Assembly: GCF_000350165.1 (NCBI RefSeq)
Contig: NZ_CAUI01000023.1
Span: 496,001 to 560,000 of the forward strand
From: Halanaerobium saccharolyticum subsp. saccharolyticum DSM 6643
GTDB lineage: Bacteria > Bacillota > Halanaerobiia > Halanaerobiales > Halanaerobiaceae
Reading direction: 5' to 3'
Length of the DNA stretch: 64,000 bases
The translations under genes were made by a program, and so were the position numbers. Positions 40,110 to 40,922 of the stretch are shown piece by piece; the stretch's first letter is position 1; every line of letters starts with the position of its first letter. The notes beneath the pieces were generated by a model. It saw only the letters and a program-made list of their open reading frames with translations, had not been told where the DNA came from and ran no database searches.

Positions 40110-40375
40110 TTATTTTTCCCCCAGTTTATATTTTTCAAAATAAGAAATATTCTTAGTTTATGCTGATGGTTTTAGTAAATAAATTACTTTCATTAATATT
40201 ATTCTATTTAGAAGAGGGTCTTCCTTCTTTTAGTCTCCGGATAATTTAAAAAGTAATATAATTATTTTATTGATAAAATATTAAATTTAAAGCAGGAGTC
40301 TGGACTTTTATGTTTAAATATAAATATAGAAATAAATATAAATATTTACATATATTATTTTCAGTCTGAAAACAA

Positions 40376-40449
40376 AGGCACAATAATTGAAAGATTATTA
40401 CGCAAAGATCTGAGTCTAAGGATTTAATCTATGACTGTCAGATTTGCCT
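40376..40449 (+). promoter_or_regulatory. Cyclic-di-GMP class I (GEMM-I) riboswitch aptamer
   Basis: All landmark elements are present in order. P1 is AGGCA (40376-40380) with TGCCT (40445-40449). P1b is AATAAT-tGAAAg-ATTATT, a stem capped by the GAAA tetraloop. The conserved ACGCAAAG joiner follows (40400-40407). P2 carries the tetraloop receptor GTCTAAG...CTATGAC and closes TCTGA/TCAGA. The three ligand-contact regions (GGCA, GCAAAG, CAG) are kept. The following gene starts at 40512. The 3' P1 strand is followed by CAGGTATA, which can pair with TATACAGGAGG around the ribosome site, giving a plausible translational switch. Confidence 0.9.
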
Positions 40450-40511
40450 CAGGTATAGAAGCCAAAGTGAGAACAAGAGTAGTGATAGCATCTTATACAG
40501 GAGGGATAAAT

Positions 40512-40922
40512 ATGGGGATTTTTAACTTTTTAAAGAGAAATGAGAATCAAAATATTAAATTTTTTGAGGAAAATAATCTGGAATCTTGGTGGAATCACAG
40601 CTTTAATGACAGAGAAAAAAAGAGAATTATTTCTGAAAGCTCAAATTTACTTAATAATTTAAATTCAGACAAAACAGCTGCCAGAACCTTATATCTGCTT
40701 GCAGGAAATGTTATTACAAGATTTAATAATAATCCTGATCTAATAATACGTTTACTTAAAAAAGCAGCAGAACTTTCAAAAGAGCCAAAGGAGCGCTTTG
40801 AAATATATTCTCAATTGATTAAAATGCTGCAGGAAGATGAGCAAAATGAAGAAGCTATTAAGTTAATTAGAGAGGCTGAAGCTCAAAATTGGGCGGGTAA
40901 CTGGCAAGAACTTAAAAATTAG
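40512..40922 (+). CDS. Riboswitch-controlled small helical protein of unknown function
   Basis: A 136-residue protein beginning MGIFNFLKRNENQ. No signal peptide and no membrane helix. Residues about 50-130 are helical with TPR-like spacing (ARTLYLLAGNVITRF, PDLIIRLLKKAAELSKEPKE, EDEQNEEAIKLIREAEAQNW), suggesting a repeat scaffold. The start at 40512 follows GGAGGG by six bases. A longer frame to 40431 would run through the riboswitch and is rejected. It is the only gene behind a c-di-GMP riboswitch, so it may act in motility, attachment or envelope change, but no domain says so. A strong terminator follows. Confidence 0.65.
   Translation: MGIFNFLKRNENQNIKFFEENNLESWWNHSFNDREKKRIISESSNLLNNLNSDKTAARTLYLLAGNVITRFNNNPDLIIRLLKKAAELSKEPKERFEIYSQLIKMLQEDEQNEEAIKLIREAEAQNWAGNWQELKN

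Follow-up and report, generated by a model that had tools for sequence, protein, structure and literature searches.

The 64,000-nucleotide stretch of Halanaerobium saccharolyticum subsp. saccharolyticum DSM 6643 analysed here (the window) carries, as judged from its sequence, a genuine c-di-GMP-I riboswitch aptamer that is predicted to bind its ligand and that lies in front of a small gene. The aptamer is an ordinary member of the Rfam family RF01051; the uncommon feature is a terminator visibly lost between two orthologous leaders, together with a candidate replacement. The best explanation, to which we give an even chance, is that a terminator-type switch was converted towards translational control, probably ON, and that the aptamer and an antiterminator-like element were retained and still work. 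Somewhat more tentatively, a single small deletion may have moved a c-di-GMP switch from termination of transcription to control of translation, with the CCTCAGG strand reused to hide the ribosome site and both the aptamer and the ON direction kept. If true, the locus represents the conversion of an expression platform caught in the act. A change from terminator to translation is rarely visible, and the orthologous leader pair provides a concrete, testable intermediate.

The aptamer matches the whole RF01051 model (positions 1–87) at window positions 40367–40451 of the forward strand, with a score of 57.1 bits (E = 1.6e-8) against a gathering score of 35, and a whole-genome search returns the same locus. 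This match bears out the c-di-GMP-I riboswitch proposed in an earlier note on this DNA. The GAAA tetraloop and CTAAG/TATG receptor recognised in that note are present in the Rfam alignment together with the P2 and P3 helices, and the helix pairs are kept in 93–100% of cells per helix among nine relatives. In the same alignment, G40378–C40379 pair with G40402–C40403, the conserved CC at the 3′ end of the aptamer occupies positions 40447–40448, and G40377 and C40447 align with the ligand-contact positions G20 and C92 of Vc2 (C92 by inferred numbering). G20 is equivalent to G11 of Cd1, the ligand-selectivity position, and in Cd1, which has no canonical P1, C87 at the 3′ end sits in the binding pocket (PMC9262584). 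By Rfam column mapping, the G at 40377 marks the aptamer as c-di-GMP rather than cGAMP type, and C40447 is the likely counterpart of Cd1 C87.

RF01051 describes only the aptamer, and the expression platform lies outside the model. The aptamer is devoid of a well-formed, conserved P1. The sole pairing that could be a real P1 joins, by complementarity, TCTGA (40365–40369) to TCAGG (40449–40453); it would be weak, and it was not found in the flanks of the relatives. Further upstream on the forward strand, a consensus scan picked out a candidate promoter at 40327–40356 (TAGAAA, 18 nt, TATATT) with nine of twelve consensus matches, which is not clearly above chance.

The regulated gene (40512–40922, forward strand) starts sixty bases downstream of the aptamer and encodes a 136-residue, weakly TPR-like protein whose TPR similarity is sub-threshold only. 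It looks like a one-gene unit since the neighbours on both sides lie on the opposite strand. Four further Halanaerobium genomes have homologues; beyond the genus, searches of 59 genomes of the class, of GTDB contigs and of viral contigs found none. The closest homologue, in H. saccharolyticum WC1 (genome G007), shares 61% identity over residues 2–114, and the comparison of the two genes gives a dN of 0.30 and a dS of 1.57, near synonymous saturation. The three more distant homologues have no aptamer. The window protein is shorter than its WC1 orthologue by about 60 internal residues (136 versus 198), as if a repeat unit had been lost in frame. An in-frame ATG at 40431, inside the aptamer, would open a longer reading frame (40431–40922) through the whole platform; it was rejected as the start of the gene, since the orthologous leader does not retain the extension, which probably arose by chance.

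The leader of the WC1 orthologue (L060) is the only other one found with an aptamer before this gene. It has the same aptamer in the same place, followed by GCCACAG-TGATGAAAATTG-CTGTGG-TTTTTT, which reads as a textbook intrinsic terminator. Both leaders belong to a sub-type, class T, defined by an aptamer ending in CCTC[AG] and followed by a GCC-type strand and AGTG, with 18 copies in the Halanaerobiaceae. A terminator scan found a terminator in 16 of these, the exceptions being the window and locus L035 of genome G002, and a further member with a terminator (L085) comes from G036, in another family of the order. From this distribution the terminator is taken as the ancestral state, which makes the ribosome-site stem described below a derived feature of this genome only. 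The ancestral platform of the genus would have consisted of the aptamer, CCTCAGG, a short loop, GCC-(AN)AG-TGA, the terminator 3′ strand and a U-run. Pattern-scan matches in Bacteroidota and Ignavibacteria look unrelated. L035 (around 1591–1968) has the aptamer and the strands of the hairpin H1 described below, no terminator by the scan, and a transposase gene (HTH_Tnp_1) close downstream, which suggests an insertion in its platform.

In the window leader, scans find no intrinsic terminator between aptamer and gene, and a hidden terminator was rejected on that result. When window and orthologue are aligned, the last part of the terminator stem and its U-run face a gap of ~34 nt on the window side. 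The segment GCCAAAGTGA (40461–40470, forward strand), which aligns with GCCACAGTGA of the H. saccharolyticum terminator and is identical to L034, appears to be a remnant 5′ strand of the ancestral terminator whose 3′ strand and U-run are missing. We infer that a deletion of ~34 nt in the window lineage removed these parts and brought the ribosome site near the aptamer. Between G40377 and T40454, window and orthologue agree except at 4 of 78 positions, and two of the four are both sides of one P3 pair (40414/40435), changed from G–C to A–T. With so few differences in the leader beside a gene almost saturated at its synonymous sites, selection has maintained the RNA through most of the period that separates it from the orthologue. 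The deletion could be recent, and conservation of the aptamer would then be silent on present function.

The platform retains a second conserved element, the candidate antiterminator hairpin H1 (40448–40471, forward strand), in which CTCAGGT pairs with GCC-(AAAG)-TGAG. Across an alignment of nine subtype 1 sequences, the window included, the hairpin takes the form CTCAGGT with GCC-(bulge of four)-TGA, and its pairs are kept in all nine members; four of the six pairs are invariant, and a change on both sides is seen in one pair only. The GCC strand takes part in H1 as well as in the terminator, and for this reason H1 may be the antiterminator, an assignment with weak to moderate support. Shuffles do not support it as a thermodynamically special hairpin, its fold energy being no better than theirs (combined p 0.42), and it is kept only as a conserved-sequence candidate. 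A covariance model of the aptamer plus H1 ranks the window second best in the order at 110 bits; this model was built from the nine sequences including the window, so the score shows only that the H1 strands are intact.

The window leader offers a candidate replacement for the lost terminator at its ribosome site, AGGAGGG (40499–40505), which is a good one. In the minimum-free-energy fold of the free leader, CCTC(AG)GTATA at 40447–40457 pairs with TATAC(AG)GAGG at 40494–40504, a pairing that the earlier note had proposed, and most of the pairs have a probability of ~0.9 in the ensemble. In this sequestering stem (CCTCAGGTATA/TATACAGGAGG), the outer and inner parts of the anti-ribosome-site strand CCTCAGGTATA are paired and the AG lies in an internal loop, while the partner strand TATACAGGAGGG (40494–40505, forward strand like the first) contains the Shine–Dalgarno sequence. 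In the predicted ligand-free fold the ribosome site is sequestered by pairing of 40447–40450 with 40501–40504, again with a pair probability of ~0.9.

The duplex energy of the stem is −12.1 kcal/mol. In a set of 125 natural gene starts that have a ribosome site, drawn from the window and related loci, 124 do less well; since the set includes the window itself, the one equal value is presumably its own start. When the flanks are shuffled, a fraction of 0.024 is as good (the stem beats ~97.6% of shuffles), and the natural starts and flank shuffles place the p value at ~0.01–0.02; for the fold of the whole leader with the middle shuffled, the fraction is 0.07. The CCTC/GAGG part of the complementarity is to be expected in any case: the sub-type keeps CCTCAGG for other reasons, and most ribosome sites contain GAGG, which leaves GTATA/TATAC alone as specific. 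The stem occurs in one genome only, that of the window, and hence has no covariation support. The earlier note had named a lack of conservation of this stem in relatives as refuting its reading, and that is the outcome here: the orthologous WC1 switch has a terminator instead.

A switch could be assembled from these elements as follows. In the absence of ligand, the sequestering stem would form and translation would be low. With c-di-GMP, the folded aptamer would take C40447, the only position shared for certain by the ligand-bound fold and the stem, and would favour the adjacent H1, or the weak P1; the ribosome site would then be released, giving an ON response. In a nearest-neighbour model, full exposure of the ribosome site has a probability of 0.003 in the free leader and 0.011 with the aptamer enforced, and a bonus of a few kcal/mol on H1 brings it up to ~0.08. 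With the aptamer enforced the site stays mostly hidden, so that an ON response would need extra stabilisation of the adjacent hairpin. The modelled direction is ON, its size would depend on stabilisation that the model does not contain, and on thermodynamic grounds alone the predicted effect of the ligand is small.

The genes behind the class-T copies also bear on the direction. Many are pilus or surface genes: PilB-type ATPases with MshEN domains recur in several species, and a PilX-like protein and an inverse autotransporter are also encoded, alongside GGDEF proteins. Genes for flagellar rod proteins, FapA and chemoreceptor-like proteins lie behind other platforms. High c-di-GMP is generally expected to switch on pili and surface genes, so the downstream genes support an ON direction for the ancestral switch and, through inheritance, for that of the window. 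Translational ON is still the likeliest form of the switch, as the earlier note had proposed, although the P1 named there is wrong and the stem is not conserved; its observation is confirmed in part and its interpretation supported in part.

The small predicted effect of the ligand makes a broken, decoupled leader a serious rival to a converted switch. The deletion would have removed the terminator and left the aptamer as a relic in front of a constitutive gene, with the match of the stem largely a coincidence added to the CCTC/GAGG pairing that is expected in any case. The lack of a detectable terminator in the window leader, the restriction of the stem to one genome, its weak significance (0.02–0.07) and the small modelled effect all agree with such a loss, as do the internal deletion in the gene itself and the case of L035, where the platform is also lost and a transposase gene follows close behind. 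Against it, the aptamer, the ligand-contact positions and the H1 strand are intact; the leader has diverged at four positions, two of them forming one base pair, beside a gene near synonymous saturation; and the energy of the stem stands at the extreme of natural gene starts. We regard a broken switch as unlikely, though it keeps real weight.

A translational OFF switch, in which the ligand would mask the ribosome site as reported for Vc2 of Vibrio cholerae, is improbable. C-di-GMP-I switches of this type exist, according to PMC9262584, which cites Inuzuka 2018, and in the model the sequestering stem minus one pair fits the folded aptamer. However, C40447 is common to the stem and to the inferred ligand contact, so that binding can only weaken the stem, and the predicted fold showed no other pairing by which the ligand-free leader would expose its ribosome site. 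Least probable is the exact model of the earlier note, in which a ligand-stabilised P1 formed by AGGCA (40376–40380) and TGCCT (40445–40449) displaces the stem: the two segments do overlap and complement each other, but this pairing consumes the ligand-contact positions G40377 and C40447 as well as G40378–C40379, which belong with G40402–C40403, and must therefore be a pairing of the ligand-free state, not the P1 of the bound one. As an alternative P1, TCTGA/TCAGG falls ~3 kcal/mol short of the sequestering stem and is absent in relatives.

The window leader is one of many that carry such an aptamer. Seven c-di-GMP-I aptamers are found in its own genome and ~59 in 14 Halanaerobiaceae genomes, a family that runs a multi-gene c-di-GMP regulon of pili and surface proteins, flagella, chemoreceptors and cyclases, with several platform designs partly matching gene function. 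At the ligand-selectivity position (aptamer position 11), 21 of 56 Halanaerobiaceae aptamers carry A (L003, L006, L016, L017, L019, L025, L029, L032–L035, L037, L038, L041, L045, L049, L051, L054–L056 and L058) and one carries C (L057), like the cGAMP-type G20A. In another group (L004 and L007, a tandem pair of the same genome as the window, with L030, L031, L044, L047, L050, L052, L053 and L059), the 3′ end of the aptamer runs straight into AGGAGG and so adjoins the ribosome site; in at least some cases it is the second of two tandem aptamers that does so. A search of the open-access literature, with subscription journals outside its scope, found no work on c-di-GMP switches in Halanaerobium. 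Transcriptional ON and OFF types of c-di-GMP-I switch are known (PMC9262584, PMC4759541), and riboswitches act mostly by termination in Firmicutes and mostly on translation in other groups (PMC2258182).

Compared with RF01051 as a family, the window shares the full-length aptamer, the tetraloop and receptor, G20 and the 3′ CC, and differs in having no conserved P1. Locus L006 of the same genome and its relatives L051 and L058 have an aptamer 3′ flank that, as in the window, can pair with either the 5′ flank or the ribosome site. In these loci the sequence TCTCCTC stands just after the aptamer, in a translational-type platform whose gene encodes a small protein that looks secreted; three species share both the P1 GGAGA/TCTCC and TCTCCTC as the anti-site strand, and position 20 is A. 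The general mechanism of the earlier note, a P1 in competition with pairing of the ribosome site, looks better conserved at L006 than at the window locus. With the Halanaerobium class-T terminator platform, which is described in the present analysis (L060, and L034 and L113 of H. congolense), the window has in common the aptamer sub-type, the CCTCAGG strand and the GCC-(AN)AG-TGA strand, whereas the terminator 3′ strand and U-run of those loci are both missing from it. Cd1 of Clostridioides difficile likewise has no canonical P1, and its terminator can coexist with the aptamer as in ancestral class T, but Cd1 switches transcription OFF and has an antiterminator (PMC9262584), and the window has no terminator. 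Vc2 of Vibrio cholerae resembles the window as a c-di-GMP-I aptamer acting at the ribosome site; in PMC9262584 it is reported as translational OFF with a functional P1, whereas the window is predicted to be ON.
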